A stretch of 64,000 nucleotides of DNA from Alphaproteobacteria bacterium (GCA_028285305.1 JANQPV010000065.1:1-64000); one strand, 5' to 3'. Positions 36,855-60,209 are shown, counted from the first letter of the stretch. Notes: generated from the letters alone by a model not told the origin. Made by a program: numbers and translations.

Positions 36855-36868
36855 GGGAGATCTCTGTC

Positions 36869-40765: not shown

Positions 40766-40777
40766 TGACGTTAGTCA
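40766..40777. promoter_or_regulatory. Operator-like palindrome A2
   Basis: TGAC-GTTA-GTCA, eleven bases before the TetR start codon. It covers the position of the ribosome site (no Shine-Dalgarno is seen), so binding here could repress the gene's own expression. Confidence 0.6.
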
Positions 40778-40787
40778 ATATGAACTC

Positions 40788-41420
40788 ATGAGCAAAGAAC
40801 ACACGAATGAAAAAGAAATGACGCGGTTCGAGCGTCGACGGGCATCGACCAAAGCGCGGATCGTTGAGGCTGCGGAGCGACTGATGCGAGACCGTGGCGT
40901 CGAGGCGGTCACCATCCACGACATTACCGATGCCGCCGACGTGGGCCACGGCACCTTCTATCTTCACTTCAAATCAAAAGGCGAAGTGATCCGCCCATTG
41001 ATCGAACACCTGTCAGATCAGGTGCACGTTCGGGTTGACCAGGCCGCTCACGGAGCAACCGATCCGGCCTTGCGCATGGCGTTGGGCATACGAATCCTGG
41101 TGCGGGCAATTGCCGAAGATCCTCTTTGGAGCTGGTACGCCGGCTCGGGAACGACATTCAGCGAGTTGGTCGCTCTCATGGGTACACCGCCCGCGGAAGA
41201 TATCAGGAATGGCCTTAAAAGCGGCCGATATGATGTTTCAAATCTCCCCGCAACAGTGAACTTCATGAACGGCGCATTTGTCGGAATGATTACGGCCCTC
41301 AACGAAGGCGCGGACGCCGGAGAAACTGCCGACTTGACAGCGGAATTGGTGCTGCGCGTCCTCGGCATTCCCGCCGAAGAGGCCGCGCAGATAACAAGCG
41401 AACCCTTAGAGACCCACTAA
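40788..41420 (+). CDS. TetR family regulator A
   Basis: 210 aa. HTH with the segment VTIHDITDAADVGHGTFYLHFKSKGEV, nearly the same as in the regulator at 59562 (VTIQDITEAADVGHGTFYTHFKTKMEV). The two also share the EDPLWSWY/ADPLWTWF region and the LGIPxxE C-terminus, so they are paralogues. It is followed at 47 bp by a flavoenzyme gene on the same strand. Both regulators have TGAC-N4-GTCA palindromes upstream. Confidence 0.87.
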   Translation: MSKEHTNEKEMTRFERRRASTKARIVEAAERLMRDRGVEAVTIHDITDAADVGHGTFYLHFKSKGEVIRPLIEHLSDQVHVRVDQAAHGATDPALRMALGIRILVRAIAEDPLWSWYAGSGTTFSELVALMGTPPAEDIRNGLKSGRYDVSNLPATVNFMNGAFVGMITALNEGADAGETADLTAELVLRVLGIPAEEAAQITSEPLETH

Positions 41421-41467
41421 CCCTCTGCTTACAGATTACCCTGTGGCAGAAGCGAAAGGAGAACAAG

Positions 41468-42688
41468 ATGTCGAGTACTCACCTCGCGGCGGCGGAAGTG
41501 AAGCAGAAAAAGTCGCCAAACACTCACCTCGAACCCGCCGAGCTCATCGAAGCTGCGGAGAATCTCGTCCCTCTCTTGCGCGAAAAAGCGCGCGACGCCG
41601 AGATTGCCCGAAAGCCTCTTGATGAAGTCATCGATGTGATTCGAGAAGCCGGCCTCTTCTCCCTCATGGTTCCGAAGTGTTACGGCGGACACGAAGCAGA
41701 CCTGGACACCTTCTTCGAGGTCTCGCTCATACTCTCGCGCGCGGACGCATCGATGGGGTGGCTTGTGTCATTCTATTTGGAACACGCCTTCTGGTTCTGC
41801 GGCTTCCCCGAAGAGTTCCAAAAGGAATTGTTCTCCAACACATCATATGTTCTCGCGCCCGCAACGCTCAACATGGGAGGCGGCAGCGCCCAAGAAGTCG
41901 AGGGCGGCTACCGCGTCAGCGGCCGGTGGCAATGGGGAACGGGCATCATTCATGCGGACTGGGTCCTGGTGGGGGCGCTCATGGCGAGCGACGACGGCCC
42001 TCCGGCGCCGCGTTTCTTCGCCATGCCCCGCGACGAAGTAGAGGCGATCGACACCTGGCACGTCGCCGGCATGTGCTCGACGGGGTCCTTCGACATCAAA
42101 GTTGATGACGTGTTCGTGCCGAAGAACCGCACCGTTGCGATGTTCGACCTAACCAATGCAACGACCGCCCAGCAGATTCACGATGGCCCTCTCTATCGCA
42201 CTCCGCTCATCCCCATCCTTGGATTCGCATCGGCATTGTCTATGCTCGGCGCCGCACAAGGCGCGCTCGAAGAATACCAAACACAGACAAAGGCAAAAAT
42301 CGCGGCAAACCAACAGCGCGCCGGGGGCGCCATCAAAGACGAAGGCAAGCCCTCCGTCGTTGCCAGCGCCGCGCTTACAATCAACGCCGCCGAGCTGGTC
42401 CTCCGGGATGTCCTGCGCGAGGTCATGGAATACCGGGACGACGCCACGCAGGCTATGAGAGGCAGCTGGCTGTCGCGCATGTCGCACGCCATTTTCATGT
42501 GCCGAAGCGCGGTTCAGGACATTGTCTCTGTTACGGGCGCAAGCGGGAGCCGATTGGAAAGCCCCATTCAACGCGCGCTCAGAGATATCTCAACGGGATC
42601 AAATCACGTGCTCTTTGATCGCGAGGCCAGATATGCCGACTACGGCCGAACCCTGTTGGATCAGCCGATCCAGAGCATGATGGTGTAA
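41468..42688 (+). CDS. Acyl-CoA-dehydrogenase-fold flavoprotein (group D monooxygenase-like)
   Basis: 406 aa, acyl-CoA dehydrogenase fold: N-terminal helices, a middle beta domain (RVSGRWQWGTGI, GMCSTGSFDIKVDDVFVP) and a C-terminal helical bundle. The PLDEVIDVIREAGLFSLMVPKCYGG opening and the GTGSxD-type middle match the two-component monooxygenase branch (HsaA, HpaB-type), which uses reduced flavin from a partner. No flavin reductase is nearby. The gene follows TetR A; its ribosome site is AAAGGAG. A true acyl-CoA dehydrogenase role cannot be excluded. Confidence 0.8.
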   Translation: MSSTHLAAAEVKQKKSPNTHLEPAELIEAAENLVPLLREKARDAEIARKPLDEVIDVIREAGLFSLMVPKCYGGHEADLDTFFEVSLILSRADASMGWLVSFYLEHAFWFCGFPEEFQKELFSNTSYVLAPATLNMGGGSAQEVEGGYRVSGRWQWGTGIIHADWVLVGALMASDDGPPAPRFFAMPRDEVEAIDTWHVAGMCSTGSFDIKVDDVFVPKNRTVAMFDLTNATTAQQIHDGPLYRTPLIPILGFASALSMLGAAQGALEEYQTQTKAKIAANQQRAGGAIKDEGKPSVVASAALTINAAELVLRDVLREVMEYRDDATQAMRGSWLSRMSHAIFMCRSAVQDIVSVTGASGSRLESPIQRALRDISTGSNHVLFDREARYADYGRTLLDQPIQSMMV

Positions 42689-42691
42689 CCA

Positions 42692-43255
42692 ATGACCAAA
42701 CCGCGCATTGATCCCTTATCAATAAAAGAATCGACAAAACTGGTCCGGCAGGTCGGGATTGCGGAGGAGAAAGCCGCAGGTTCGATTTATCGTGTCTTGC
42801 TTCGCCAGCCGCGGTTCGGGCAACTGATCAACCAAATGGTCGAAATGCTGCTGACAGAGAGTACCCTGGACCCCCGGCTACGTGAACTGGTCATTATGCG
42901 GATCGGTTGGTTGAAGAAAGGCGTCTACGAGTGGTCCCACCACTGGAACTTGGCGAAACGAGATGGCGTCGAGGAGAGCGATATGCTCGCAATGAAGGAT
43001 TGGGAAGCGCATGATCATTGGTCGCCCGTTGAAAGGACCCTATTTCGCGCCACCGACGAGACACTCGCAAACGGTACAATCTCGCAGGAAACATGGTCCG
43101 ACTGTGTGAAGCACTTTCCGACCGAGCCGGAGCTGATCGACGTCGTCGCGACCATCGGGGTCTGGAATATGATCTCTGAAATCCTCACCACCCTCGCTGT
43201 GCCGCTCGAAGAGAGCATTGCGGCATGGCCGCCCGATGGCATTGGACCAGCTTAG
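42692..43255 (+). CDS. Carboxymuconolactone decarboxylase family protein
   Basis: 187 aa, AhpD/CMD helical fold. The region LTESTLDPRLRELVIMRIGWLKKGVYEWSHHWNLAKRDGV is the core; the usual CxxC of AhpD is absent, so it is not a peroxidase-type member, and His pair HH (in EWSHHW) stands in the active-site helix. It is 3 bp downstream of the flavoenzyme, hence cotranscribed. A paralogue of the same family sits in the other TetR-controlled operon (56620). Confidence 0.85.
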   Translation: MTKPRIDPLSIKESTKLVRQVGIAEEKAAGSIYRVLLRQPRFGQLINQMVEMLLTESTLDPRLRELVIMRIGWLKKGVYEWSHHWNLAKRDGVEESDMLAMKDWEAHDHWSPVERTLFRATDETLANGTISQETWSDCVKHFPTEPELIDVVATIGVWNMISEILTTLAVPLEESIAAWPPDGIGPA

Positions 43256-43322
43256 AAATCTAAATTGTTACTGTAGAGACTTTCTTTCCATAAGCCTGAA
43301 TCTGTCGCTTTAGGAGGTTCCC

Positions 43323-43718
43323 ATGCGCCGCTCGTTTCAAATCGCGCTCCTAGTGGTGGCGTTCATTCCATTTGCCCTCGGCGCCTTGAGTCTGATCGGC
43401 GGCGCCGCCCGGCTTTTGCCGGAGGACTTGGTAACAGCCAGGCTCGACAGCCAAATGCGGTTCTATGCGGTCTACTCCATGCTGCCGCTCTTCATCACGA
43501 TATGGATTGTCCGCAATTTGGATATCGCCGGGTCGGTTTTGATGATCATTCTAGGAGCGACAGCGCTCGCCGGCATGGCGCGCCTTTACTCGGCGACGCA
43601 CTACGGCATGCCGGAACCGGCGATGATGGGCGCCATTATCCTCGAGATCGGCGTGCTGTTGTTCGTTCCTTGGTACTGGCTGGGCGTCCGCCGAGCTAAA
43701 CTTCTATCCACTGAGTGA
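43323..43718 (+). CDS. DUF4345-like membrane protein
   Basis: 131 aa with four hydrophobic spans (about 5-28, 48-66, 70-90, 98-120). The MRFYAVYSMLPLF and ARLYSATHYGMPEP stretches fit the DUF4345 family of small membrane proteins. AGGAGG precedes the start (43313-43318). It follows the CMD gene by 67 bp. Function unknown. Confidence 0.7.
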   Translation: MRRSFQIALLVVAFIPFALGALSLIGGAARLLPEDLVTARLDSQMRFYAVYSMLPLFITIWIVRNLDIAGSVLMIILGATALAGMARLYSATHYGMPEPAMMGAIILEIGVLLFVPWYWLGVRRAKLLSTE

Positions 43719-43773
43719 TCGTTCCGTACGGATACTTTTTGGCCGCAACGATACCATGATCGGATCCACCACA

Positions 43774-44229
43774 ATGAAACGGCTTCTCGTTGGTTTGCTG
43801 ACTATCATCGGTCTTGCCATCGGCGCGGCGCTGCTATCTCCGATAAGCCCCCTACCGGGCGGCGCTCTCACCGGAGAGGTTGCCGACGAACCCGTGAATG
43901 ATTGGTCATTCGCCGCCGACGAGTCTTTTGGTTACTTGGAAACACAAGTCCCGGAACCGCGTACCATAACCGTCACCTGCATTGTTTCGGATGGTCAGCT
44001 CTATGTGGGTTGCAGTTCGTGTTCCGGCAGATATTGGTCGCAACGCCTCATTGCGGAACCCAAAGTTAGGTATCGCGTTCTCGGAAAAATATACAATGTG
44101 ACGGCAACCAGGGTGGAGGACGCGGACGAAATCGATCGTGCTTGGCGGGCGCGCGCCGCCAAAAATGTAACGGCAAATCCAGATCAGATTGCTGATGACT
44201 TTTGGTTCTTCCGCCTCGTCTCTCGCTAA
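43774..44229 (+). CDS. Membrane-anchored split-barrel-like protein with CxxC (family member 3)
   Basis: 151 aa from the ATG at 43774; an upstream ATG at 43756 would add six residues, but MKRLLVG aligns with MKRVIFG of member 2. Anchor about 4-24, then SPLPGGALTGEVA, DWSF, YLETQVPEP, VTCIVSDGQLYVGCSSCS with a CxxC, YW, and a C-terminus ending WFFRLVSR. Same family and layout as the 34046 protein. Inferred to face the periplasm. Function unknown. Confidence 0.65.
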   Translation: MKRLLVGLLTIIGLAIGAALLSPISPLPGGALTGEVADEPVNDWSFAADESFGYLETQVPEPRTITVTCIVSDGQLYVGCSSCSGRYWSQRLIAEPKVRYRVLGKIYNVTATRVEDADEIDRAWRARAAKNVTANPDQIADDFWFFRLVSR

Positions 44230-44256
44230 TGACGCTATGAATCAGAGGAATCCAAA

Positions 44257-44745
44257 ATGATACCGTCGACGTTGGCGCGCAATACAGTCTCATATCTTAT
44301 TGTGCTGAGCATAACGACACTGCTTATCTCGGAAGCAAACGCGTCGTACGCCCTCCAAGAGTGGAACATGGAGACGCGCCTGAACTTGCCCCTGTGGCTA
44401 GGTGTTTGGTTGCTGGGTGTATTGCTGCCGGCAAATCTTGCGTCGGTGTTCTTCGTGAAAAACCACGTTGCCGCCAGATGGGTGCTGGGCGGTTTTGTGT
44501 GCAGCCACCTGTGGCTAACCATTGTGGAAGTCACTGGCGCCTTTTCAGTCCAAGGCGGGTTGGTATCGCTCGGTCACATCATTTTTTGGTCACCGGCGAT
44601 CTACGCTCTGTACCGATATCGTTCCGAAATCAAACTGCCGTCTGCCTATGGGATCTGGGCATGTGTGATGCTCTTCGTCTACGGGGTGTCGATGATATTC
44701 GATATCCGGGACGCGACCATTTGGATCAACGCTCAGTTTGCTTAG
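44257..44745 (+). CDS. Four-helix membrane protein, unknown
   Basis: 162 aa with hydrophobic spans near 9-25, 45-68, 75-100 and 132-150. I recognise no family. It lies between two members of the anchored split-barrel family on the same strand, 27 bp after the first, so all may be cotranscribed. Confidence 0.6.
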   Translation: MIPSTLARNTVSYLIVLSITTLLISEANASYALQEWNMETRLNLPLWLGVWLLGVLLPANLASVFFVKNHVAARWVLGGFVCSHLWLTIVEVTGAFSVQGGLVSLGHIIFWSPAIYALYRYRSEIKLPSAYGIWACVMLFVYGVSMIFDIRDATIWINAQFA

Positions 44746-44958
44746 CTAAAACGCAATAGATCAGTGCATTTAAAACTTGACGTGACGTCTTTTGCAACAA
44801 GGGATCGTCCGGTTGCCGGCTCTTATCTGACCAGCCGAATGATTGGGCGCTCGCCGCCGGTTTGACAAACTTTGGAAAACCACGACTATTGAGTTTCCGT
44901 CAGCACGTACGGGCGAGGATTGGGGCAAACCACAACACAGGCTGAAGCTTAGGCGAGA

Positions 44959-45381
44959 ATGTTCATGTTGAGATGGATCATGTATTTGATCGTGTTGGGG
45001 GCCGCCTTTTTGGCGGGCGTCTACTTTTATCTGCCGTATAACGACGGACCCATCGTGGTATTGCCGGGTGGTGAATTCAAAGGCGAGGAGGCCTCGGCGG
45101 AGAATTGGGAGTTTGCCTCGGTCTACCCAACTTTGCAGCTCGAGATGAGACCGAGCCGGCCGTACTCCGTGAACCTCAATTTTGTGCTGCGGGAAGACAA
45201 GCTGTATATTGATCCGGCACCGACCAGACGTTGGTATACGTATCTTGTCGAAAATCCGGAAGTGAGGGTTCGATTCGATAAAGATATATATCGTGCGTAT
45301 GCGGTTCATGTAACCGATGAAAGTGAGATTGCCGGGATGGACCCCGAACGCGAGATCTATCGTCTCGAGTTGAGGGAGTGA
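44959..45381 (+). CDS. Membrane-anchored split-barrel-like protein (family member 4)
   Basis: 140 aa. Anchor about 3-25, then a PGGEFKGEE turn like that of members 2 and 3, ENWEF in place of NDWSF, LQLEMRPSRPYSV, then FVLREDKLYI, RRWYTYLVENPEVRVRF and a KDIYRAYAVHVTDESEI strand. It lacks the CxxC. The long antisense frame at 44770-45477 is rejected. Function unknown. Confidence 0.6.
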   Translation: MFMLRWIMYLIVLGAAFLAGVYFYLPYNDGPIVVLPGGEFKGEEASAENWEFASVYPTLQLEMRPSRPYSVNLNFVLREDKLYIDPAPTRRWYTYLVENPEVRVRFDKDIYRAYAVHVTDESEIAGMDPEREIYRLELRE

Positions 45382-45518
45382 CAGATGTTTTGTCAGATAC
45401 ACTTTCTTGCGTTCTAACAAGGTTTGGTGTTTCGACACCTTTGCTATACCTGTTCGCCCTTTATTGGAGGCCATCAACGTGTTGGTAATTTGTAATTGGT
45501 CCGCTGGAAACTAAAGCT

Positions 45519-47399
45519 ATGAAAATCGTCATCACAGGAGCGAACAGCGCGACCGGTCTAGCCCTGCTGTCGCATCTCGTTGAGAGAAACAATGTTGAGG
45601 CCGTCGCCTGCGTTCGCTCCGAACGAGCCAGGCAGGCGCTTCCCTCCCATCCCGCAATCGAGAGTCACATCGTCGACTACAATGATGTGGACAAGTTGGC
45701 CCGTGTCATGGAGGGCGCGGACTGCGTCATTCATTTGGTCGGTATTTTGATCGAATCCCGCAAAGGTGGCGGTACGTACAAAAGCTCTAATGTTGAGGCT
45801 ACGCGCGATGTTGTAGACAGTGCGGAGCGAGCGGGCGTTAATCAGTTGATCTTCGTCAGCGCATTGGGGGCCGATGAGCGATCCTCAAATAAATATCTGA
45901 GATCAAAAGGACAGGCCGAGAAAATCGTCCGGAGCTCCAAAATGCGCTCCACTCTAATCCGTACACCCTTGTTGTTGGGGCCAGGTACGGCGGGGTCGGA
46001 GTCAATCAATCAGGTTGCTTCGCAAAGACAGGCGCGTCTCTTGGGTGGCGGGCGACACCATGTTCGGCCGCTCGACGTTGGCGACCTTTCACATGCAATT
46101 CTTAATGCGGCTTCCGCAGCGGAGAAGTTCGACGGGGTATTTGATCTCGTCGGTCCGGAAGCGATTGAGTACAGGGAACTCATCCGCAGAGTTGCCAGAC
46201 TTCAAGGCAACGATGTGTCAATTGGGAGTGTTCCCATATGGCTGGCAAAGTTGGTGGCGAGCACTCAAGCGATCGTGGGGCGTTCAGGCATATCCGGCGA
46301 TGTGATTGACGTCATCACGTCCAGCGAAGATGTTGAGCGAAACACAGATCAGTTCTTCGAGATAGAGTTGACACCCTTAGACGTGACTCTGGCGAACTCG
46401 GCGCAAGCTGCAAACGAGGATCACCCGGTGGCTAGTCAATCTCCGCAAGAGTTGCCCGGGAAGAAGGGCGGCCCACCTCTTTTTGCAAGACTTATTATTC
46501 TCGGCATCACGGCGTTGTGCTTTGCTTATTTGGTCTATCGGTTGAATGGGGCGGCAACGCGTGAGGGACTAAGCCTCTTTGACTATATGGCGAGCGTATT
46601 TGCCAATGTGGACTGGCTGAGCTGGGCTCTCCTTATGGCCGGGTATTCGCTCTTATACTTTATCATCGATACGGCGGTCTTTTGGAGGGCGCTCCATTGG
46701 TTCATCAAACCAATCGCGTACACGGATATTTTGCCCATCCGCGCGAGTGCGTACATTATTTCCATCGTGAACGAACAGGTTGGGAAGGGCGCCATGGGCG
46801 TCTACCTGAACCGCCGCCATGATGTGCCCGCTTGGGAGGTCGGATCGGTCATCTTGTTCCTGATCTTTTGCGAGGTGTTCTATCTGCTCTTTTGGGCGAC
46901 CGTGGGATACGCGATCGCCAGGGACTCATTGCCGCCTGCTTTCGATTTGATACCGATCCTGGCGCTGGGCGGCTCCGCCTTCCTGACCCTCTTCGTCATG
47001 TACTTTAATGGTGTGATCCTTCCAAAGAGCGAGCTCAAGGATCGCGCCCTCTTTCATGCCTTTCGCCGGGCAGGCCCCCAGCACTATCTGATGTTTTTGT
47101 TGATGCGCTCGCCTGCAATTTTGGCGGCCGTCTTTGTCTACACGACGGCGATTGGCATGTTTGGGGTGGAAACAACCTACCTTACGATGCTCGGTTTCTT
47201 GCCGGTTATCTTCTTCTCGGCTGCAATCCCGACACCGATGCGAGCGGCGGCGATCGCCGGTTGGGTGTTATTGTTTCCGGCCTACGAAGGCCAAGTCGCT
47301 GCTTTCGGATTCGTTCAGCACAACTTTTTCATCCTGTTTAACGCGGTGATTGGCCTGCTCTTCTTGCGACGGACTCAGCGAGAGTTGTTCGGCACGTGA
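45519..47399 (+). CDS. SDR (NDUFA9-like) fused to a UPF0104/LPG-synthase-TM-like membrane domain
   Basis: 626 aa. The N-terminal 300 residues are an atypical SDR (ITGANSATGLALL at 4-16; no YxxxK spotted at the usual place; LLLGPGT in the middle), similar to complex-I-associated NDUFA9/NmrA types. After a linker, residues about 322-620 hold eight hydrophobic spans that resemble the lysylphosphatidylglycerol-synthase membrane region (UPF0104). The start ATG is weak in ribosome site. Its last codons overlap the start of a CDP-alcohol phosphatidyltransferase, so lipid metabolism is the likely context. The fusion is unusual; function unknown. Confidence 0.65.
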   Translation: MKIVITGANSATGLALLSHLVERNNVEAVACVRSERARQALPSHPAIESHIVDYNDVDKLARVMEGADCVIHLVGILIESRKGGGTYKSSNVEATRDVVDSAERAGVNQLIFVSALGADERSSNKYLRSKGQAEKIVRSSKMRSTLIRTPLLLGPGTAGSESINQVASQRQARLLGGGRHHVRPLDVGDLSHAILNAASAAEKFDGVFDLVGPEAIEYRELIRRVARLQGNDVSIGSVPIWLAKLVASTQAIVGRSGISGDVIDVITSSEDVERNTDQFFEIELTPLDVTLANSAQAANEDHPVASQSPQELPGKKGGPPLFARLIILGITALCFAYLVYRLNGAATREGLSLFDYMASVFANVDWLSWALLMAGYSLLYFIIDTAVFWRALHWFIKPIAYTDILPIRASAYIISIVNEQVGKGAMGVYLNRRHDVPAWEVGSVILFLIFCEVFYLLFWATVGYAIARDSLPPAFDLIPILALGGSAFLTLFVMYFNGVILPKSELKDRALFHAFRRAGPQHYLMFLLMRSPAILAAVFVYTTAIGMFGVETTYLTMLGFLPVIFFSAAIPTPMRAAAIAGWVLLFPAYEGQVAAFGFVQHNFFILFNAVIGLLFLRRTQRELFGT

Positions 47400-47947
47400 T
47401 TTCATACTTGCTCACGGGACTTCGAGTCGTTCTGGCTATCCCGATAGCATATGCTCTTGCGTTCCCTTCGTCTGCTTACGGTGCATTCGCATTTTACGGT
47501 GTAGTGATCGCCGTTATCACCGATATTTTGGATGGACAAGCTGCCAGGCGGGCGGGTGTTTCATCCCGCTTCACCCATCTGTTTGATCATACCGCGGACT
47601 TTGTCTTCGTCACGGCAGGCCTATTTGGCCTTGCCTATGCCGGCATTGTGCCCATCGCTCTGCCGATCCTCATCGTTTTTGCCTTTGGACAGTATGTGCT
47701 GGACTCTTTTTTTCTTAATCGCAGTGTACAATTGCGGATGAGTAACCTCGGGCGATGGAATGGTCTTTTTTATTTCGCCCCCCTGCTACTTGCCGGTCTT
47801 GCAAGAGTTGGATGGATCGGAGACTTCGAGACTGTCTTGCTCACCGCCACGGAATGGCTTGCCTATCTCCTCATTCTTTCAACAGTTCTTTCCGTGTTCG
47901 ACCGCGCCCTGGCGGCGATCGCGACGGCGAGAAACAAGCCCGGCTGA
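47396..47947 (+). CDS. CDP-alcohol phosphatidyltransferase family protein
   Basis: 183 aa, about six spans. The catalytic motif is DILDGQAAR, then LFDHTAD after an eight-residue gap, giving all four Asp residues (DxxDGxxAR...DxxxD). The Gly normally found three residues before the third Asp reads Thr. GTG start overlaps the upstream stop by four bases (GTGA), indicating translational coupling. Such enzymes join a CDP-diacylglycerol to an alcohol (glycerol phosphate, inositol, serine); the acceptor is unknown. Confidence 0.8.
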   Translation: MISYLLTGLRVVLAIPIAYALAFPSSAYGAFAFYGVVIAVITDILDGQAARRAGVSSRFTHLFDHTADFVFVTAGLFGLAYAGIVPIALPILIVFAFGQYVLDSFFLNRSVQLRMSNLGRWNGLFYFAPLLLAGLARVGWIGDFETVLLTATEWLAYLLILSTVLSVFDRALAAIATARNKPG

Positions 47948-47957
47948 GGCGACCGGA

Positions 47958-48374
47958 TTACTCGGCCGTCTCTTCCACCGGATCAAGCCGAACGAAGTAC
48001 CGCGGAGGAAAGCCTGTTAGAACCTTGAAGAGCAAAGTGTGCGGGTTATCCGCTTCCACCCGGTCGTGCTCCGCTCCCGAGACCGTCGTGGCGGTGTAGG
48101 GTTTGGTTTCGCCATCCTCGGTCACTTTGACGTTCGGATTCGCTTTTGTTCGTTCCCACCAGGCGCGGGGCCAATGGTTTACACCCACGTATTTTTGGTC
48201 GTCGCTCGTCAGCAGCGAAACCACGCGCGGATGTTCGGCGCCGTCTTCGTCTATCGTTGTCAGCACGATGGTTCCTTCTTGCTGAGGTTGAACGAAGCCA
48301 AGCATCGCCTCAAACGCGACAACTACACCTACATACAACACGCCCAAGATGATGAGATATCTGAGAATTCGCAT
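47958..48374 (-). CDS. Membrane-anchored split-barrel-like protein (family member 5)
   Basis: 138 aa with an N-terminal anchor (about 5-27), then HPRVVSLLTSDDQKYVGVNHWPRAWWERTKANPNVKV, the clearest Ddn/DUF385-type stretch in the window (the family has a similar ...LLTVDD..YV....PW...L.ANP.V.V pattern), and a basic linker. It faces the CDP-alcohol gene tail to tail with 10 bp between stops. No F420 or FMN motif can be asserted from sequence alone. Confidence 0.6.
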   Translation of the reverse strand: MRILRYLIILGVLYVGVVVAFEAMLGFVQPQQEGTIVLTTIDEDGAEHPRVVSLLTSDDQKYVGVNHWPRAWWERTKANPNVKVTEDGETKPYTATTVSGAEHDRVEADNPHTLLFKVLTGFPPRYFVRLDPVEETAE

Positions 48375-48720
48375 CGTCGTTCCCCTTTTATAGCGATGGG
48401 CGTTACATTATGGCGTTCAAACCCATTTGTCTCGTTCTCAATCGTGACAGTTTGTTTGACCGGAAGAAAGACTGGGTTTTTCCTCCCAGTGTTTGCGAAA
48501 AACGGCGTTGGGCGCATGTCCCGCGAACAACTCGCTTTGGCGAAAGTTCTTCAACCCGTCTTTGATCCTGAAACGTCTTGGTCTGAACCTTCGCGAGATA
48601 GCGATGCACCGCACCCGCGTGTACTCATCGGAGAAGGTGCTCTTCGCGATGGACACGGCAAAGCTCAAGAGGATCTGGGGCCGATGCCGATTGCGACCTT
48701 CCCTGCTTAGGGTCAACCTC
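48375..48720. other. Intergenic region
   Basis: 346 bp between divergent-to-convergent genes, with frames on both strands (for example 48438-48716 minus, beginning just after the glycosyltransferase stop) but no family resemblance and no ribosome site I trust. Left uncalled. Confidence 0.4.
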
Positions 48721-49953: not shown

Positions 49954-50007
49954 TGGTCCGATTTACCCTGGTGTCTGCCTAAGTTCGCATGAGAGAATTC
50001 GTCGCAT

Positions 50008-51387: not shown

Positions 51388-51888
51388 AGGGGTTGTAAGG
51401 CTTTTACACCAGTATCATGCCCTTCAGCCCTTAGAAAGTGATCACACTAATGTGTTCAAGACCAACCAAGCGTTTCAACCACACGGCACATTCATAGGCA
51501 CTCTCTTCTATTTTTCCCGCAAGCGGCGACATAGTTCTGCATTCGAATGATGCAATCGCCTGATTGGATAACTTGATCGTACCGATACTACTTTGTGGGG
51601 AACCGAGACGGACCTATTCGAGCCCGCTCTTTGTCCGCCTTGGTTCCCGTACTCATTTCGGCTGGGTACCGGCGCCTTGTGCTTCAAGCATCGATGATGG
51701 GCGTGGTCGCACGGCCACGTGAATTTCTTCATTGTGTGGCCACCAATCCATCATTCTCCGCACGCGGTATGACTAAAGCGACGCGATGCCGGTGTTCGAT
51801 CGAAATTCGGCTTTACAAGAAACATCTTTTGGGCTTGATGAAGCCGGAGCGTTTTCGACCTCACGATGTCTGTTGCGTAGGTACGAGT
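51388..51888. other. Divergent intergenic region, flippase / acyltransferase
   Basis: 501 bp. In-frame start codons as far left as 51595 would lengthen the acyltransferase, but those 98 residues are Cys/Arg rich and unlike the family, so the start at 51889 is used. No clear palindrome or box pair was found. Confidence 0.4.
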
Positions 51889-53910
51889 ATGAAAATCCAA
51901 TACCGGCCAGAAATCGATGGCTTGCGCGCCGTTTCGGTGCTTGCGGTCATTCTCTTTCATGCCGAGTTCGTGTTCTACGGGACGGGCGTCCTCGAAGGAG
52001 GCTTTCTCGGCGTCGACATCTTCTTTGTCATTTCGGGCTATCTCATATCTTCCATCATCCTGACCGGACTGAAGGAAAAGACATTCAGTTTCGCTCACTT
52101 TTATGAGCGGCGCATCAGACGCATCTTGCCGATTCTGTTTTTGGTCATCCTGGTTACGTCTCTTTTTGCCTGGGAGAATTTCGCGCCAAACGCCCTCTTG
52201 GAGTATTCCAAGTCTGCCATTTCCGCGATCTTCTTCGCGTCAAATATCTATTTTTGGATGGAGGATGGATATTGGGCCGAAGCGAGCGAACTCAAACCCT
52301 TGCTGCACACCTGGTCCTTGTCTGTAGAGGAACAATTTTATTTGGTCATTCCCGCCGTCCTCTTGTTCATATGGCACTTCTTGCGATCCTATCTGGTTGC
52401 GATCGTACTCTTGGGGCTCTTTCTATCTCTTATCTTAAGTGACGTTCTTGCAACTCACTACGGCGAGCTGGCCTTCTTCATGTTGCCGACACGCGCCTGG
52501 GAACTCTTGGCCGGCGTTGTGCTGGGCGCATATGAGGTCAATCGCGGAAGACATCCAAAAGGGTGGACAACACAGGTCTTGCCGAGCTTGGGAATGGTCC
52601 TCATTGCCGCGAGCTTTGTGATGTTCAGTGAGCATACGAAGCACCCGTCATTTCTGACTGCCATTCCCGTTGTTGGAACAATGTTGGTGATTTGGTATGG
52701 CGGATTTGGAGACCATCTGACCAAACTCCTCAAGACGGGCCCGTTTGTCGCGCTGGGGCGTCTGTCGTACGGGTTTTACCTTTGGCATATACCGGTGTTT
52801 GTGTTTGCGCGATTGCAAGTCAGTGAGCCGACGACTCTTGACAAGATGGGTTGGATCGCGCTGTCGTTATTGATCACGACGCTTACTTACTTCCTCGTCG
52901 AGAAGCCCTTCCGCAATCCCGATATCGTCCGGACGCGGTATCTAACAGCAGGTCTTGTTACGACCTTTTGTCTCGCGATGAGCTTGTCCTCTTTCGCCCT
53001 CCTCAATGACGGCATTTCCATCGCGAATGCGAGCGCCAGAGATTTGTTCCGACAAACGGAACGGCTGAGCCTTGAACAAGACGGGGCGCCCTGTCATGCA
53101 CGAGATTTGGAAAATTTCTGCCGATTTGGAGAACCTTCGCGTCCCATCACTCTTATCAATGCGGGTGACAGCCATTCCGATATCCTCAGTGTTCCCTTGC
53201 AGCGGCTGGCGGAAGATCACGGGCTTCAATACACGCAAATGACGAGCCCCGCCTGTCCCTTGGCGATCAATTATGAAACGCGCTACAACGGCGATCTGTT
53301 TGTGGGGTGTAACGAAGCTTACAATCAAAGACGCTTGGAGATCATTCAACATACACCCAATGCCATCGTGGTCTATGGTGGACGGCTGCCCAAATACCTC
53401 TCGAACTTTGGTGACTTCGACAACGGCGTCGGCGGCATTGAAAAGGGTTTCTCGGGATTCGACCTCCACCTTGTCGACGAGATGCGGTCCTTCGAAGAGG
53501 GCGTTTTGGAGACTCTCAAGATCATTCAGCAGCATGCTGAGACTTTAGTGTTGATCTACCCAAACCCGGTTGCAGGCGCGCATGTGCAGCGCGTTATTCA
53601 TAGTATGCCGCGGGTAAACGGCGCCGCCGATCCGACCTACCAGTACAAATTCTCCAAAGGGCGCTATCTGGAGTTTGCGGAGAGCGCCCGGGCCCTCTAT
53701 GATTCCATCAAGGGCGACAATATTATAAGGATCTACCCGGACGAAATCATGTGCGATGGGGCTTACTGCTTTGTCGTCCATAAAGGCAAGGCCTATTATC
53801 ATGATACAAATCACCCTTCGTCCTGGGTGGCCGAGGAGATTGCGAAGAGGACGATCGGAGCGCTCGTCGAGAGAGGCGATCTAGACCGCAAAATTGCAAA
53901 GACGGACTAG
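51889..53910 (+). CDS. Acyltransferase-3 with C-terminal SGNH domain (OafA-like)
   Basis: 673 aa from the ATG at 51889. The N-terminal Acyltransferase-3 membrane domain (about 1-360) opens YRPEIDGLRAVSVLAVILFH (His is the catalytic residue of the family) and contains GGFLGVDIFFVISGYLIS. A linker leads to a periplasmic SGNH-type domain with AGDSHSDIL (the Ser-bearing GDSH) and a C-terminal HDTNHPS (the DxxH block). The pair is typical of O-acetylation of O-antigen or exopolysaccharide. It is divergent from the flippase and glycosyltransferase. Confidence 0.85.
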   Translation: MKIQYRPEIDGLRAVSVLAVILFHAEFVFYGTGVLEGGFLGVDIFFVISGYLISSIILTGLKEKTFSFAHFYERRIRRILPILFLVILVTSLFAWENFAPNALLEYSKSAISAIFFASNIYFWMEDGYWAEASELKPLLHTWSLSVEEQFYLVIPAVLLFIWHFLRSYLVAIVLLGLFLSLILSDVLATHYGELAFFMLPTRAWELLAGVVLGAYEVNRGRHPKGWTTQVLPSLGMVLIAASFVMFSEHTKHPSFLTAIPVVGTMLVIWYGGFGDHLTKLLKTGPFVALGRLSYGFYLWHIPVFVFARLQVSEPTTLDKMGWIALSLLITTLTYFLVEKPFRNPDIVRTRYLTAGLVTTFCLAMSLSSFALLNDGISIANASARDLFRQTERLSLEQDGAPCHARDLENFCRFGEPSRPITLINAGDSHSDILSVPLQRLAEDHGLQYTQMTSPACPLAINYETRYNGDLFVGCNEAYNQRRLEIIQHTPNAIVVYGGRLPKYLSNFGDFDNGVGGIEKGFSGFDLHLVDEMRSFEEGVLETLKIIQQHAETLVLIYPNPVAGAHVQRVIHSMPRVNGAADPTYQYKFSKGRYLEFAESARALYDSIKGDNIIRIYPDEIMCDGAYCFVVHKGKAYYHDTNHPSSWVAEEIAKRTIGALVERGDLDRKIAKTD

Positions 53911-53935
53911 GGGGCGGCGATCTCCGAGCGAAGAG

Positions 53936-55492
53936 TTACTCGGAATTCGGAACGGTGTTGGTCACCAGGTACACAAGTCCGGTGGTCTTGCAGGAGATGA
54001 ACATCTCTCCCTTTGGTCCGCGGCCGAAGCGTACATCGGTCCGCTCAACGCCCAACAAGTCCGTGAGGGTCTCGGCTTGCACGTCTGGCTTTCCGTCTCC
54101 ATCCTCATCCAAGGTGAGCTTCAAACGCGAAAGAGGTGCTTGGGTGAGCGCGCTGGGGGGCTCCCCATCTTCCAAGTAAGTTTTCGCCGCCAGTAATTCG
54201 GCCAACCCAACCTGGTAGACTTCCCCCGTATGAATGCCGAAGTCCGCGAAAATGTACTGATCTTGAAGGGCGGGGTCGCTGTTGTTTTGAATTACGTAGC
54301 CGCCCGCCATCACCGACCCAATGAGGATTCCCCCTAGACCTGTGCTGTGGTCGTACTGTGCCGCCGGATAGATGTAATCGTTCTGCGCCCATTCATCGTC
54401 CGGCAGAGCGGAGACCCCATAATCCAGGCCGTAGCCCATGCCTTTGGGCCCGGTTTCGCGGTTGTGGACGAAGGTCCCCTCTCTGTCTCCCCAACCGTAA
54501 TTTCCGCCGGGCTGCAGAACGTCGATCTCTTCGATGTTGTCTCGGCCGGTGTCCGCCACGATGATGTGAGTCCGGTCCCCGCTTGTGGCAAAGGCGAAGT
54601 GATGCGGATTGCGATGGCCGAGGGTGTAGATTTCATTGAGCGTGGCCGGATAGATCAAAAAGGGATTGCCGGGCGTTGTGTAAGAGTTAATTCCATCTTG
54701 AAGCGGATTTATGCGCAGGACTTTGCCCAACGCATCGCCTGGATCGAGCCCGTCGCCCGCGTCTGTCGATTGGGTGCTGCCGTCCCCGTGGGCGACATAC
54801 AACAAACCGTAGTCTTCATCTCCAGGCTTCGCGAAGGGATTGAATTTAATCTGTTTGATGGGATGATCGAAAACAGGCATCTGTACCCGGAACAGTTCCC
54901 GGTAGGATTGGGGATCGACTTGTCCGATTTCGCGATCGAAGGTCCACTCCGCCACCAAACTTTCGGCCGCCGGTTTGTCTAAGCGTCTTCCGACATAGGT
55001 GAGACCGGATACGTTTTTGGGGCGCCGGACCAACGCGGCTGTGTAGAATTTTCCGTTCTCGGCGAACTCGGGGTGAAACGCGACGGCGCGCAGTCCGCCA
55101 TGTTGTTCATTGGTTTGATCCAGAAGATACCCATTGCGGGCCTTCTTTCTCGCTTGCTTCACGGAGGCGTTGTAGTCGAACCATTTGGTCGCCTCCACTG
55201 TGTCTCCCTTTTTTGAAAGAGCAGTAACAACACCGTTTTGGGTTGTCACGAAGAGATCCTGGTTGCCCGTATTTTCAGGTTGTGCGGTCATAGAGATGAT
55301 CCGCTTGTCGCCCGTATCCGGATCCGCATAAGTCCGCAGATTGAGGACCGCGCCTGAAAAGCCGATCTCATCTCCCAGCAGATCCTGAAAAATCGGCTCC
55401 GGTTCGGGTCGAAGCACCCAGAACAATCCCAACGCCGCGACGCCCAAAGCGGCACCGCCCGCGCCGAGAACGAATAAGGATCTAAAACTCAT
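53936..55492 (-). CDS. PQQ-dependent sugar dehydrogenase-like, membrane-anchored
   Basis: 518 aa. An N-terminal anchor (about 5-25) is followed by a six-bladed propeller of the soluble aldose-dehydrogenase family: HGGLRAVAFHPEFAENG, LLYVAHGDGS, ALGKVLRINPLQDG, YTLGHRNPHHFAF, DTGRDNIEEIDVLQPGGNYGWGDREG. The last segments match PQQ/calcium-binding strands of YliI-type enzymes, though residues were not checked one by one. It is convergent with the acyltransferase. A sugar lactone or aldose is the probable substrate. Confidence 0.83.
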   Translation of the reverse strand: MSFRSLFVLGAGGAALGVAALGLFWVLRPEPEPIFQDLLGDEIGFSGAVLNLRTYADPDTGDKRIISMTAQPENTGNQDLFVTTQNGVVTALSKKGDTVEATKWFDYNASVKQARKKARNGYLLDQTNEQHGGLRAVAFHPEFAENGKFYTAALVRRPKNVSGLTYVGRRLDKPAAESLVAEWTFDREIGQVDPQSYRELFRVQMPVFDHPIKQIKFNPFAKPGDEDYGLLYVAHGDGSTQSTDAGDGLDPGDALGKVLRINPLQDGINSYTTPGNPFLIYPATLNEIYTLGHRNPHHFAFATSGDRTHIIVADTGRDNIEEIDVLQPGGNYGWGDREGTFVHNRETGPKGMGYGLDYGVSALPDDEWAQNDYIYPAAQYDHSTGLGGILIGSVMAGGYVIQNNSDPALQDQYIFADFGIHTGEVYQVGLAELLAAKTYLEDGEPPSALTQAPLSRLKLTLDEDGDGKPDVQAETLTDLLGVERTDVRFGRGPKGEMFISCKTTGLVYLVTNTVPNSE

Positions 55493-55767
55493 ACATCACC
55501 ACCCGGTATTGGGGTCTTTTTAGGTTCGCACTCTACTCACTGTAGAAACCAACGGCCTTCTATGCAGCGTACAGAGCTCTGTCAAACACATGCCATTGCT
55601 GTGTACCCGAAATGTGCCGCCCATGGCACCCTGATTTTGGTCGCAGGGGTTAAGGATAAAGCGTCAAACCGCCCTATTGGTTGGGCATGGTGGCCAATCT
55701 AAGACGTCAAACAACGCCCTGGGTCAAGCGGCAGTCGGGCCCACACCTTAATCAGAACCACGGATCG

Positions 55768-56619
55768 TTATCCCTTCATCAGCTGGCGGATTGTTGTGCC
55801 ATTGAAGGAACGGTAGACCTGGTAAAGCGGAATGACGATCTTTTGGATGACAAAACCCATGCTGGTTTCCTTGGCAAAGGCCGGCCGCTGCTTGAGGCGC
55901 TTGTGCCAGCCATGCAGATTGGGATGGATTTCAAGCGGGTAACCGGCCAACTCCAGCCGGTTGGTGGAGATAAACCACGCGAGATCGAGAACGGAGAGAC
56001 GGTCCCCGATCAGCCAAGTATTGCCGCTCAATCTCGCATCCAAGCGATCAAAGGCGGCGCGGTGGGCTTCGATGGCGCCACGCGCATCTTCATCAGAGAT
56101 GCCGTTTTCTGCGAAGTTGCGCCACCAGGCAACCTCCTTGGCGCGGGAAGGATCGTCCGCGCCCTCCTCTTCGTAACGCTTTAGTGTTTCTTCCGACTTG
56201 CCGATAAATCTCTTCGGCGCCATGAAGCCGGTGGTGATGACACGCAAATCCGTGTGGAGACTGTCTTCAAGATCGAGCGATTCCTTGACCTCCGCCCGCT
56301 CCTCCTCCGTTTGGGGAAAGAAAGACTCCACTTTTGACGGGAGAGCGTCGAGGTATTCGAGAATGTCATTGCTCTCAATATGGACGACGCCATCGTGGAC
56401 CAGGACCGGCACAACGCCTCTTGGATTGATGCCTAAGTACCAGGCGCTCACATGTTCGTTGCGCGCCAGGTTGATGGGATGAGAGACGAATTTGATGCGT
56501 TTTTCCCGGGCGAGCGTGCGCACCTTTTGGGAACAGGACGAGCCTTGGAAATGGAGAAGGTGCAAGCCCTTCCAGGATTTGACCTCCTCTGTCGTGACTT
56601 GTTCGTCGCTTAAAATCAT
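55768..56619 (-). CDS. Glutathione S-transferase family protein
   Basis: 283 aa. N-terminal thioredoxin-like domain with LLHFQGSSCSQKVRTLAR (the SxxCSQKVR catalytic segment, Ser/Cys type) and a HIESNDILEYLD cis-Pro/SNDI region, then an all-helical C-terminal domain. It ends the aromatic operon, starting at the base after the CMD stop. In gentisate pathways a GST-like maleylpyruvate isomerase has this place, which would fit the FAH neighbour; this is inference. Confidence 0.82.
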   Translation of the reverse strand: MILSDEQVTTEEVKSWKGLHLLHFQGSSCSQKVRTLAREKRIKFVSHPINLARNEHVSAWYLGINPRGVVPVLVHDGVVHIESNDILEYLDALPSKVESFFPQTEEERAEVKESLDLEDSLHTDLRVITTGFMAPKRFIGKSEETLKRYEEEGADDPSRAKEVAWWRNFAENGISDEDARGAIEAHRAAFDRLDARLSGNTWLIGDRLSVLDLAWFISTNRLELAGYPLEIHPNLHGWHKRLKQRPAFAKETSMGFVIQKIVIPLYQVYRSFNGTTIRQLMKG

Positions 56620-56988
56620 CTATTCGTCCTTGTCCAATTCAGCGTACACCTCCCGCGCTATACGTTGACCACTGACGGCCACCGGCCAGCCGCCGTAATG
56701 GGCGAGATGGAGCAGCATTTCTTCGATGGTCTCGAGAGTAATACCGATATTGTGCGCGCCGCGCAGATGAATTCGGAGCTCGGGTTCGCGGCCCAATACG
56801 ATCAGTGCCGTGAGCGTAATCATCGAGCGGGTTTTGAGATCCAAGGCCGGGCGGGACCAGACTTCGCCAAAGAGGCTGCCCACAGTGTGCTTCATGAGAT
56901 CGTCGAGTTCGCCGCCCCCGCCTGGAACGGCGCCGAAATATTCTTCCAGGACCTCCCGGCCCTTGTTTATGCTCTCCTGCGTCGGCAT
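56620..56988 (-). CDS. Carboxymuconolactone decarboxylase-like protein
   Basis: 122 aa, single-domain CMD fold similar to PcaC: LDLKTRSMITLTALIVLGREPELRIHLRGAHNIGITLETIEEMLLHLAHYGGWP carries the family's GAxNxG and YxGxP-type positions, with a His in HLAHYGG. Its stop is followed at once by the GST start (no gap), so the operon is tightly coupled. Whether it decarboxylates a lactone or has another role is open, since no other beta-ketoadipate gene is near. Confidence 0.87.
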   Translation of the reverse strand: MPTQESINKGREVLEEYFGAVPGGGGELDDLMKHTVGSLFGEVWSRPALDLKTRSMITLTALIVLGREPELRIHLRGAHNIGITLETIEEMLLHLAHYGGWPVAVSGQRIAREVYAELDKDE

Positions 56989-57000
56989 GGTCTTTCTCCT

Positions 57001-57885
57001 CTATACGATAAAACTTCCCACCGGGTCATTGACCACTTTGTTTTCGATGTGACCCAATGTGTCAAATTCGACGCGGACCACATCGCCCTCTTTGAGCCAA
57101 GGCTGGCCCTTCATCCAGACCGCAACGCCCGACGTTGTGCCGGTCGGAATGATATCGCCCGGCTCAAGCGTGAATGCGGTGGAGAGGAACTCAACGATGC
57201 GTTCGCAATTGAAGATGAGATGTCGGGTATTCGACTCTTGGCGCACTTCGCCGTTGACCAGGGTCCGGAAGTTCAGATTGGCGTGATCCACTTCATCGGT
57301 GGTGACGAGCGCAGGGCCCAGTGGACAATGACTATCCCAAGACTTGCCCATCATCATGGTGGGCGCTTTCATTTGCCAATCCCGCACTGAGACGTCATTG
57401 CAGATCGTGAAGCCGGCGATCACTTTGCCCGCGTCAGCCTGGGATACCCGGCGGCAGCGTTTGCCGATGACGATGGCAAGCTCACCTTCGTAGTCGAGCT
57501 GCTCTGACTCCGGCGGCAGATAAATGTCACTGTACGGACCGGTGACAGACGTATTCTGTTTGTTGAAGATGATTGGATCCTTCGGCAGATCGATGTCCCG
57601 CACTTCTTTGACTTCGTTGAAGTGGTCCATGTAGTTAAGACCCACGGCCAGTATTTTGGACGGATTGGGAACCGGGCTTTCCAAGCTGACATCGGCGAGT
57701 GGCAATGACGCCTCTCCTGATGCAGCAGCTTCTTTCGCTTTGGCCATGGCCCCATCGCCTGCTTCGAAAAGCTCTCGCATGGATGTCGGCAAGTCGGGCG
57801 CGGCGGAGCTGAAGTCGATGACCGCGTTGTTCGTCAATGCGCCGATCCGCGTCGTGCCGCCTTGAGTGAAGGTTATGAGTTTCAT
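57001..57885 (-). CDS. Fumarylacetoacetate hydrolase family protein
   Basis: 294 aa. The C-terminal FAH barrel has NYMDHFNE, the metal-binding acidic cluster YEGELAIVIG (Glu pair) and DVSVRDWQ, plus IPTGTTSGVAVW near the end. Members cleave C-C bonds in fumarylpyruvate, oxopentenoate or homoprotocatechuate products. It is the second gene of the operon, 15 bp after the monooxygenase. Fumarylpyruvate is a plausible substrate if the GST acts as maleylpyruvate isomerase. Confidence 0.9.
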   Translation of the reverse strand: MKLITFTQGGTTRIGALTNNAVIDFSSAAPDLPTSMRELFEAGDGAMAKAKEAAASGEASLPLADVSLESPVPNPSKILAVGLNYMDHFNEVKEVRDIDLPKDPIIFNKQNTSVTGPYSDIYLPPESEQLDYEGELAIVIGKRCRRVSQADAGKVIAGFTICNDVSVRDWQMKAPTMMMGKSWDSHCPLGPALVTTDEVDHANLNFRTLVNGEVRQESNTRHLIFNCERIVEFLSTAFTLEPGDIIPTGTTSGVAVWMKGQPWLKEGDVVRVEFDTLGHIENKVVNDPVGSFIV

Positions 57886-57900
57886 TCTTCTGTCCCCTCC

Positions 57901-59433
57901 TTAGAATTTCGATCGCAGCTGATCCAACTGATCATTTAAGCCTCGTTCCGCGTTGACAACACCAAAAACGTAGCGGTCCGGACGGAGAATAACGGCTTCG
58001 TTGAACCCTAAAACGAGATCGAGTTCTTTGGACGTACGGGCCTCCTCGGGCAAGACAACCTGTTGCACATCGAGCCGCTCCATAAACGCTTTGTTCTCAG
58101 GTGAGATTTGGTCCGAAACATCGGACTTGGAGACAATCGCGAACTTCGAGCCGATCACATCATCGAGACGTGACTCGGGGTTTCCGTGCAAAGACACTTT
58201 CGGTTGAGGCGCGACAAACCCGAAGGCCTTGCCGCTCTCTTCCTCACTGCCCTGAGAAAGCACACCGGAGTGCAGTCGTGGGAAGCCCCGGCTGCCGCCG
58301 TAGATCGCGTCCATGTTCTCGGGCCAGTTTCCTGTCACTTGGGCATCAGCGATCTCCTCCATGAGCTTGCCGATGGCAACGGCGTGGTCCACCAAATCAA
58401 ATGCGTGGGGTTCCCGCTCCTCTTGATACGTATCAAGTAAGTCCTCCGGTGCCAGTCCACGTTTGACCAAGTCCAGCTTCCAGATCAGGTTGGCGACGTC
58501 GCGTATGCCGGCGCACATGCCCTGGCCCAAAAAGGGCGGCGTCTGGTGGGCGGCGTCGCCCATCAGGAATATTCGTCCTTCCCGCCATCTTTCGGCCGTC
58601 GCGGCATGGAATTGATAGACGGCCGACCGCTCGATCTCCGCATCGCCCTTCTTCATCCACGGACTCAACAGTTCCCAGATTTTGTCCTCTTCCTGAATCT
58701 CGTCGCGTGTTTCGCCTTCATTGAGGCGGAATTCCCAGCGGCGCCGGTCACCGACAATGGGCACAAACGTTGCCAGACGCGCCGGGTCGCAGACTTGTTG
58801 GGGGATCAGCGGCAAGTCGACTTTGTGCTTGAGCAAGACATCAATCACCAGCCAGTCGCAGTCATACCCTAAATTCCTAAAGGTGATGCCCAAGGCCTTG
58901 CGGATGGGGCTCGCGGCACCATCGGCCGCCAAGAGGTAGGCCGCCTTTAAAGTGCATTTTTCTCCGCCGTCGACGGGCTCGATATGGACGGTTACACCAG
59001 ATGGGGTTTGATCGGGTACATCTGCCTCATAGCCGAGAAACGCGGATACACCGTCGAAGCTTTCGGCGTGCTTTCGGAGTGTCCGCTCAAACGTGGGCTG
59101 ATGAAAAAAATTGCCGTCCGGCCATCCATGGGCTCCGGTTGCGCCTTTTGGGACATCGAACCCTTCGATCCGATTGCCCTTCGCATCGATAAACTCTGCA
59201 CCCAGATTTTGCTCTGTTTGCCGGGACAATTCCTCAGACAATCCCATTTCCTGAAAAACGCGCATGATTTCTCCATCGAAATTGACCGCGCGCGGCAACG
59301 GATAGACATCGGTCATGCGATCAACGACAGCGACCTTCCATCCCCGTTGTGCGAGCATCCCCGCGGCCGCAGCTCCGACAGGTCCGTAGCCTACGATGAT
59401 CGCATCAAATCTGCTCGTTTGTTCGATTGCCAT
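57901..59433 (-). CDS. FAD-dependent aromatic monooxygenase (MhpA-like)
   Basis: 510 aa, group A flavin hydroxylase. FAD motifs GYGPVGAAAAGMLAQRGWKVAVVDR (ADP) and GRIFLMGDAAHQTPPFLGQGMCAGIRD (ribityl) are intact, and the DG motif lies in LLAADGAASPIRK. Close in pattern to 3-(3-hydroxyphenyl)propionate and resorcinol hydroxylases. First gene of the operon; it diverges from TetR B, with three operator-like sites between. The ring-cleavage dioxygenase expected next is missing from the operon. Confidence 0.9.
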   Translation of the reverse strand: MAIEQTSRFDAIIVGYGPVGAAAAGMLAQRGWKVAVVDRMTDVYPLPRAVNFDGEIMRVFQEMGLSEELSRQTEQNLGAEFIDAKGNRIEGFDVPKGATGAHGWPDGNFFHQPTFERTLRKHAESFDGVSAFLGYEADVPDQTPSGVTVHIEPVDGGEKCTLKAAYLLAADGAASPIRKALGITFRNLGYDCDWLVIDVLLKHKVDLPLIPQQVCDPARLATFVPIVGDRRRWEFRLNEGETRDEIQEEDKIWELLSPWMKKGDAEIERSAVYQFHAATAERWREGRIFLMGDAAHQTPPFLGQGMCAGIRDVANLIWKLDLVKRGLAPEDLLDTYQEEREPHAFDLVDHAVAIGKLMEEIADAQVTGNWPENMDAIYGGSRGFPRLHSGVLSQGSEEESGKAFGFVAPQPKVSLHGNPESRLDDVIGSKFAIVSKSDVSDQISPENKAFMERLDVQQVVLPEEARTSKELDLVLGFNEAVILRPDRYVFGVVNAERGLNDQLDQLRSKF

Positions 59434-59480
59434 GTTGGATCTCCTCTCCTCATCCCTAAGAGAATGCTTCCTTCAATATT

Positions 59481-59493
59481 TTGATTAACATCA
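59481..59493. promoter_or_regulatory. Operator-like site B1
   Basis: TTGATTAACATCA: TGAT-TAAC-ATCA, an inverted repeat with the same N4 spacer as the other sites but T/A for C/G at the inner arm base. Centre 16 bp left of B2. Confidence 0.5.
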
Positions 59494-59496
59494 TTT

Positions 59497-59510
59497 TTGA
59501 CTATAGTCAA
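59497..59510. promoter_or_regulatory. Operator-like palindrome B2
   Basis: TTGACTATAGTCAA, a perfect 14-bp palindrome, core TGAC-N4-GTCA. It lies between the divergent monooxygenase and TetR B genes and is the best of the family in this window. Confidence 0.7.
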
Positions 59511-59512
59511 TT

Positions 59513-59525
59513 TTGATGATAGTCT
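59513..59525. promoter_or_regulatory. Operator-like site B3
   Basis: TTGATGATAGTCT: TGAT-GATA-GTCT, a degenerate copy exactly 16 bp from the centre of B2. Together the three sites make a regularly spaced array. Confidence 0.45.
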
Positions 59526-59561
59526 TTTTTCTTGTTTTTCAGAAACGAAAACTTGGATGCT

Positions 59562-60209
59562 ATGGCGGTCACCGAAGAAAGTATGAAATCCCCCCGGGTT
59601 CAGCGCAAAAGAGAACAAGCGCGTCACCGGATCTTGGAGGCAACCGAGGCTCTCGTGCGAGCGCGCGGCGTTGAGGATGTTACCATCCAGGACATTACCG
59701 AGGCCGCCGACGTGGGCCACGGCACGTTTTACACGCACTTCAAAACCAAGATGGAAGTTCTCGTCCCCATCGTCGAAACGCATGCGCAGGATCTAACAAA
59801 ACGAATCGATCGATTGACGGCAAACATCTCCGATAGCGCCGTGGTGGTTTCGGTCAGTGTGCGCCACTTATTGCGCTCCATCGCCGCTGATCCTTTGTGG
59901 ACCTGGTTTCTGTGCAACGTGCAACTTCCCATGGAAACGTTTCGGCGCGGGGTCGGAGATAGCGGACGGCGGGATATGGCGCGCGGTATGGCGGAGGGCC
60001 GATTCACAGAGATCTCCCAAGACACTTTGGAACCCTTTCTGATCGGCGCTTTGGTCGGCGTCGTACGGGAACGATCAAACGAGATCTCCGAACATAACGC
60101 GGCAGAGGACTCTGCGTGCATGGTGCTCCAGCTTCTGGGTGTGCCGGAGTCCGAAGTGCGAGAGATTGCTTACGGCCCCCTGCCCCCCTTGCCGGCGGAC
60201 GTTGGTTGA
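59562..60209 (+). CDS. TetR family regulator B
   Basis: 215 aa. HTH segment VTIQDITEAADVGHGTFYTHFKTKMEV, and the same internal ADPLWTWF and LGVPESE segments as regulator A (40788), so the two are paralogues. ATG at 59562 is used; an in-frame TTG at 59532 overlaps no operator but looks less likely, and another ATG is at 59583. It is divergent from the monooxygenase operon across the B sites, which it probably represses. Confidence 0.87.
   Translation: MAVTEESMKSPRVQRKREQARHRILEATEALVRARGVEDVTIQDITEAADVGHGTFYTHFKTKMEVLVPIVETHAQDLTKRIDRLTANISDSAVVVSVSVRHLLRSIAADPLWTWFLCNVQLPMETFRRGVGDSGRRDMARGMAEGRFTEISQDTLEPFLIGALVGVVRERSNEISEHNAAEDSACMVLQLLGVPESEVREIAYGPLPPLPADVG

Follow-up and report, generated by a model that had tools for sequence, protein, structure and literature searches.

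The region analysed here (the window) is a 64-kb stretch of DNA, part of a 152-kb contig in a 5.4-Mb alphaproteobacterial draft genome (the class being deduced from orthologues in metagenome-assembled genomes labelled Alphaproteobacteria), and it contains two regulator genes on the plus strand, TetR-A (positions 40788-41420) and TetR-B (59562-60209; the ATG at 59562 is probably the start and was preferred over the TTG at 59532). By genome-wide search, they are the sole two TetR_C_40 (PF21306) proteins of this genome. Downstream of TetR-A, on the same strand, lie genes for a flavin monooxygenase of the HsaA/HpaH type with the acyl-CoA dehydrogenase fold (PF08028 type; 41468-42688), a 187-residue CMD-family protein (PF02627; 42692-43255) and a DUF4345 membrane protein (43323-43718), and then for a weakly matching F420H2-quinone-reductase/deazaflavin nitroreductase-like protein (43756-44229) and another membrane protein (44257-44745). 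Orthologues of the monooxygenase are 88-90% identical and lie in the same operon, where they too adjoin the CMD gene; the reductase-like protein is conserved in the A loci and the second membrane protein in one of them, while the DUF4345 protein was not found in the orthologous A loci. In the locus A operon, none of the genes was recognised as a usual-type flavin reductase. Upstream of TetR-A, positions 36662-40248 encode a molybdopterin-dependent oxidoreductase and an epimerase-type dehydrogenase, for which no match was found in the orthologous A loci fetched.

At locus B, beyond a series of genes that include glycan and envelope functions, TetR-B is divergent from a minus-strand operon. This operon encodes an MhpA-like FAD aromatic hydroxylase of group A (PF01494 type; 57901-59433; NF004829 above cut-off), a fumarylacetoacetate hydrolase (FAH) family protein (57001-57885), a 122-residue, PcaC-like CMD protein (PF02627; 56620-56988), and a GST-family protein, a possible isomerase (55768-56619), that is kept in the B loci of two other genomes, G123 and G227. 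Thus, as the first-pass annotation had stated, each locus combines a flavin-dependent hydroxylase with a CMD-family protein; its description of these enzymes as related, however, was not supported, since the hydroxylases are dissimilar in sequence and the two CMD proteins could not be aligned, and homology was rejected for both pairs.

The two regulators themselves are clearly homologous, being 38% identical over 199 aligned residues and matching each other at E 1.8e-38, against 2.7e-10 for the next best TetR of the genome. Identity is highest in the helix-turn-helix region (31 of 41 positions, 76%) and much lower in the ligand domain (39 of 146, 27%), and the segment ADVGHGTFY is common to both without any difference, which agrees with the near-identity of the DNA-binding helices proposed earlier. 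Their PF21306 C-terminal domains scored 59.4 and 55.4 bits, above the Pfam gathering cut-off of 27. The top solved relative by sequence was RolR for both (E 1.4e-27 for TetR-A and 9.1e-30 for TetR-B), and the predicted folds led to the same protein: TetR-A superposed on RolR with Z 21.2 and rmsd 2.3 over 194 aligned residues (next best Z 14.6), and TetR-B with Z 22.7 and rmsd 2.0 over 196 (next best 15.7). Both also contain the DNA-binding motif of the RolR subfamily, IxxxAxxGxGxFYxxF (PMC3086911), as ITDAADVGHGTFYLHF and ITEAADVGHGTFYTHF.

RolR binds resorcinol through Asp94, Arg145, Arg148 and Asp149, together with a hydrophobic cluster (PMC3086911); residues of the chain in the alignment were converted to the numbering of that paper by a shift of 16, with Gly63 and Gly65 as anchors. 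At the four network positions, TetR-B has D, S, R and D, so that only Arg145 is missing (replaced by Ser), whereas TetR-A has D, P, E and D, corresponding to R145P and R148E, together with Asn or Asp in place of Phe172, and this holds for all three A orthologues. The complete network is therefore found in neither protein; both can be described as RolR-like, with resorcinol-type sensing only putative. Since the ligand pockets differ, TetR-A and TetR-B probably answer to different compounds.

The inverted repeat TGACN4GTCA occurs three times in the window, always in the promoter regions of the two regulators, against a chance expectation of 0.81 for 64 kb (at least three matches were obtained in 1 of 100 shuffles). 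Two of these sites precede TetR-A, namely A1 (TGACTCTCGTCA, 40733-40744), which lies within a palindrome with 8-bp arms (AAACTGAC-TCTC-GTCAGTTT), and A2 (TGACGTTAGTCA, 40766-40777), 33 bp from A1. The third, operator B (TGACTATAGTCA, 59498-59509), is part of the 14-bp palindrome TTGACTATAGTCAA in the gap between TetR-B and the divergent hydroxylase gene, and is flanked at 16 bp by a weak site on the left (TGATTAACATCA, 59482-59493) and another on the right (TGATGATAGTCT, 59514-59525). The distance between the A and B sites is 18.7 kb, which bears out the earlier statement that one operator core is found at both loci about 19 kb apart. The left weak site and operator B constitute the sole tandem of TGAYN4RTCA at 16-bp spacing in the genome, and a site similar to the right one occurs in the B loci of G227 and G123. 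A scan of both operator regions for sigma-70 promoters found none, and literature searches yielded no relevant description of a TGACN4GTCA operator or of this gene set.

The operator is conserved among orthologues and also in more remote relatives. The A orthologues of G123 and G227 have two operators, at -55 and -22, with the A1 position (-55) unchanged, and the 33-bp spacing is retained in three A orthologues; in gammaproteobacterial loci, two operators 32 bp apart are common. Among the B orthologues, the core is TGACTATAGTCA or TGACTGTAGTCA in G227, G123 and L049 and TGACGAAAGTCA in G009, while G143 has one mismatch to the core. The B operator core was also found in gammaproteobacterial loci, and most of the hydroxylase modules of that class have the operator. 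Spacings of 16 bp and 32-33 bp, which amount to roughly 1.5 and 3 turns of the helix, would leave room for more than a single DNA-bound dimer, given that binding as dimer pairs has been reported for both RolR and QacR (PMC9210681).

The relationship between recognition helix and operator was then evident in a sample of 50 TetR_C_40-like regulators, in which TGACN4GTCA was sought up to 250 bp upstream. The site was present for 16 of the 20 regulators with a G-H-G helix, as compared to 1 of the 30 with other or unrecognised helices, and shuffling gave a chance expectation of 0.3%. The association had a Fisher p of 1.5e-8, which is only indicative, because the sampled regulators are related and their independence is overstated. 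Among 2304 inverted repeats ranked upstream of the G-H-G genes, TGAC-N4 came first, and the same ranking for the non-G-H-G regulators gave no comparable leading repeat. The exact site was missing in four G-H-G regulators, two of which (those of B_G143 and L050) have versions with one or two mismatches, while the other two (L041 and L052) showed no convincing site within 250 bp. The same genome provides an internal control in the form of a third hydroxylase/TetR/FAH/VOC module (L206:5130-8442; contig C22 of G000, approximately 107.1-110.4 kb), the regulator of which has an S-N-G helix and no TGACN4GTCA nearby. It is to be noted that this module also contains the nearest VOC relative in the genome, no linked ring-cleavage dioxygenase being found at locus B. 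In addition, a paralogue of the locus A monooxygenase (54% identical; L207:7436-8941, contig C43 of G000) lies beside an unrelated TetR with an S-S-G helix, and the 17 kb fetched around it contained no TGACN4GTCA.

Beyond the two loci, a large genome-wide regulon was considered and rejected, as the 5.4-Mb genome contains 85 TGACN4GTCA sites, close to the approximately 79 estimated from base composition (the reversed-pattern control gave 46), and many of the 18 extra sites examined with their surroundings were inside genes. One intergenic site, TTGACATAAGTCAA (L166:1501-1514; contig C39 of G000, 15282-15295), is a candidate extra target, located roughly 60 bp upstream of the gene for a luciferase-like monooxygenase, with an FMO-like oxidoreductase gene divergent from it; it is offered as a lead only.

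Considering that the regulators are homologous and have the same DNA recognition, cross-regulation is plausible, i.e., each may bind the operators of the other, and a regulon spanning both loci is possible. Distinct operator specificity, which the first-pass annotation had named as an observation that would count against such a regulon, was not apparent from the sequences, save for one flanking base and the site spacing. The base preceding TGAC is C in six of six left halves of A sites and mostly T in B sites, and this base, together with the arrangement of the sites (paired at 33 bp in A, flanked at 16 bp in B), could separate the two regulators. Nonetheless, the gammaproteobacterial sites have T, A or C at this position, so the base may not discriminate between A and B sites. 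Two readings face each other. If the two proteins occupied each other's operators in the cell, the operons would answer jointly to two inducers, and both ligands would be needed wherever both repressors sat on a site. The identical ADVGHGTFY helix favours such sharing, as does the finding that a single 12-mer, TGACTATAGTCA, serves as the core of both one A operator and the B operator in G227; TetR-A, moreover, was present only where B also is (three of three genomes in two lineages, among 385 genomes searched), although two of the three belong to the same genus and the number is too small to prove a functional link. Conversely, B occurs without A in G009 and G143, and the A and B loci of G123 are on separate contigs, so that the 19-kb proximity is not kept there; we hold true sharing to be a tentative proposition, with appreciably less than an even chance. 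In the opposite reading, the operator core was simply inherited, flanks and spacing keep A from B, and the loci are unconnected. This accords with the unrelated enzymes, the different pockets and the unlinked loci of the relative, but has to contend with an identical core and recognition helix and with a flanking base that varies freely in the gammaproteobacterial sites, and it is a serious possibility that falls somewhat short of even odds.

The first-pass annotation had gone further, suggesting catabolic steps, parallel or cross-regulated, that act on a single family of substrates; both regulators would then control parallel or successive steps. Both loci do possess a CMD protein and a flavin hydroxylase of the aromatic type, and A co-occurs with B, in line with this proposal. 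However, the hydroxylases are nonhomologous, no alignment was obtained for the CMD proteins, the pocket of TetR-A is changed, the loci are unlinked in G123, and neither locus has a ring-cleavage enzyme. The suggestion is therefore weakly supported, and a substrate family common to both loci is unlikely.

The history of the regulators was examined in a tree of 27 rows, in which the G-H-G regulators were split from RolR and the others with support of 96/98. The B regulators constitute one clade, and another (95/86) unites A, on a long branch, with gammaproteobacterial regulators that belong to hydroxylase modules. A recent local duplication giving rise to A and B is rejected by this tree, both being old lineages. 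The A orthologues in G123 and G227 are 80% identical, with the order TetR-A, monooxygenase, CMD and Ddn-like retained. In gammaproteobacterial metagenome-assembled genomes, the same operator separates the TetR gene from that of an MhpA-like hydroxylase, with FAH downstream, and a VOC-family protein adjoins the hydroxylase where examined. Since the B and the gammaproteobacterial regulators both accompany hydroxylase/FAH modules, TetR-A looks like an old regulator that moved to a different operon and to a different inducer. Recent gene conversion could also have kept the helix-turn-helix regions of A and B alike, and identical codons are indeed used at 22 of the 31 shared residues in this genome, against 12 expected; but the excess within over between genomes (60/97 versus 98/197) was not significant (p 0.06), and GC content differs among the genomes compared, which leaves this explanation very improbable. 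Two further relatives were noted. A VOC protein in G123 (L205:10144-10677, contig C7) is 66% identical to that of the gammaproteobacterial modules, and the 18 kb fetched contained no matching genes for a hydroxylase, a TetR or an FAH protein; a distant TetR-B relative (32.5%) on the conjugative plasmid pUSP2 of Aminobacter sp. MSH1 (L191:6064-6675) adjoins genes for a P450, a 2Fe-2S ferredoxin and an FAD oxidoreductase.

Taken as a whole, TetR-A and TetR-B are most likely autoregulatory repressors of the RolR type, acting on adjacent oxygenase operons with one operator specificity. We infer, with good though incomplete confidence, that ligand-released repressors read TGAC-N4-GTCA through the G-H-G helix, each repressing itself and the neighbouring operon. 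TetR-A would repress its own gene within the codirectional tetR-A/monooxygenase/CMD operon from two operators 33 bp, or about three helical turns, apart; TetR-B would repress its own gene and the divergent hydroxylase/FAH/CMD/GST operon from a strong operator with a weak one 16 bp to either side. Occupation of the C-terminal pocket by an aromatic or phenolic ligand would then take the repressor off its operator. TetR-B, in which most of the phenol-binding network of RolR is kept, probably responds to a phenolic compound that its own hydroxylase consumes or produces, while TetR-A, with its network partly lost, probably senses another compound. As they appear to read one DNA switch, the two regulators could disturb one another's operons.

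A bolder extension of this model, which we regard as rather unlikely, is a two-input switch, in which two RolR-type sensors, each with its own aromatic inducer, vie for a common set of operators at the two oxygenase operons; if true, it would combine conserved DNA-reading heads with diverged ligand domains within one regulon. With the same operator and different pockets, the pair offers a compact natural system for studying insulation versus target sharing between paralogues, and phenol biosensors could be developed from it. The rule connecting G-H-G with TGACN4GTCA covers part of the RolR-like TetR regulators and allows sequence-based prediction of their target operons in bacteria that are mostly uncultivated.

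The models of HsaA and of the C2 type of p-hydroxyphenylacetate hydroxylase match the locus A monooxygenase over its length, but its scores are far below their curated cut-offs. The locus B hydroxylase passes NCBIfam NF004829 for 3-(3-hydroxyphenyl)propionate hydroxylase of the MhpA type, but differs from that type in being linked to FAH, CMD and GST genes instead of an MhpB-type dioxygenase. The closest parallel is RolR of Corynebacterium glutamicum, the resorcinol repressor (PDB 3aqs/3aqt), which shares the TetR_C_40-type fold and the GxGTFY helix and regulates a phenolic-hydroxylase operon (rolHMD), just as TetR-A and TetR-B lie beside hydroxylase operons. Its recognition helix, however, is G-T-G rather than G-H-G, and its operator rolO, TGAAC-N4-GTTCA with TTCAT-N2-ATGAA (PMC9210681), is not the pattern found here. 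A maleylacetate reductase and a hydroxyquinol dioxygenase were seen at neither locus A nor locus B. Arg145 is missing from both regulators, and TetR-A stands further from RolR, with P and E at positions 145 and 148; TetR-B, on the other hand, shares with RolR the residues D94, R148 and D149 as well as the divergent gene layout.
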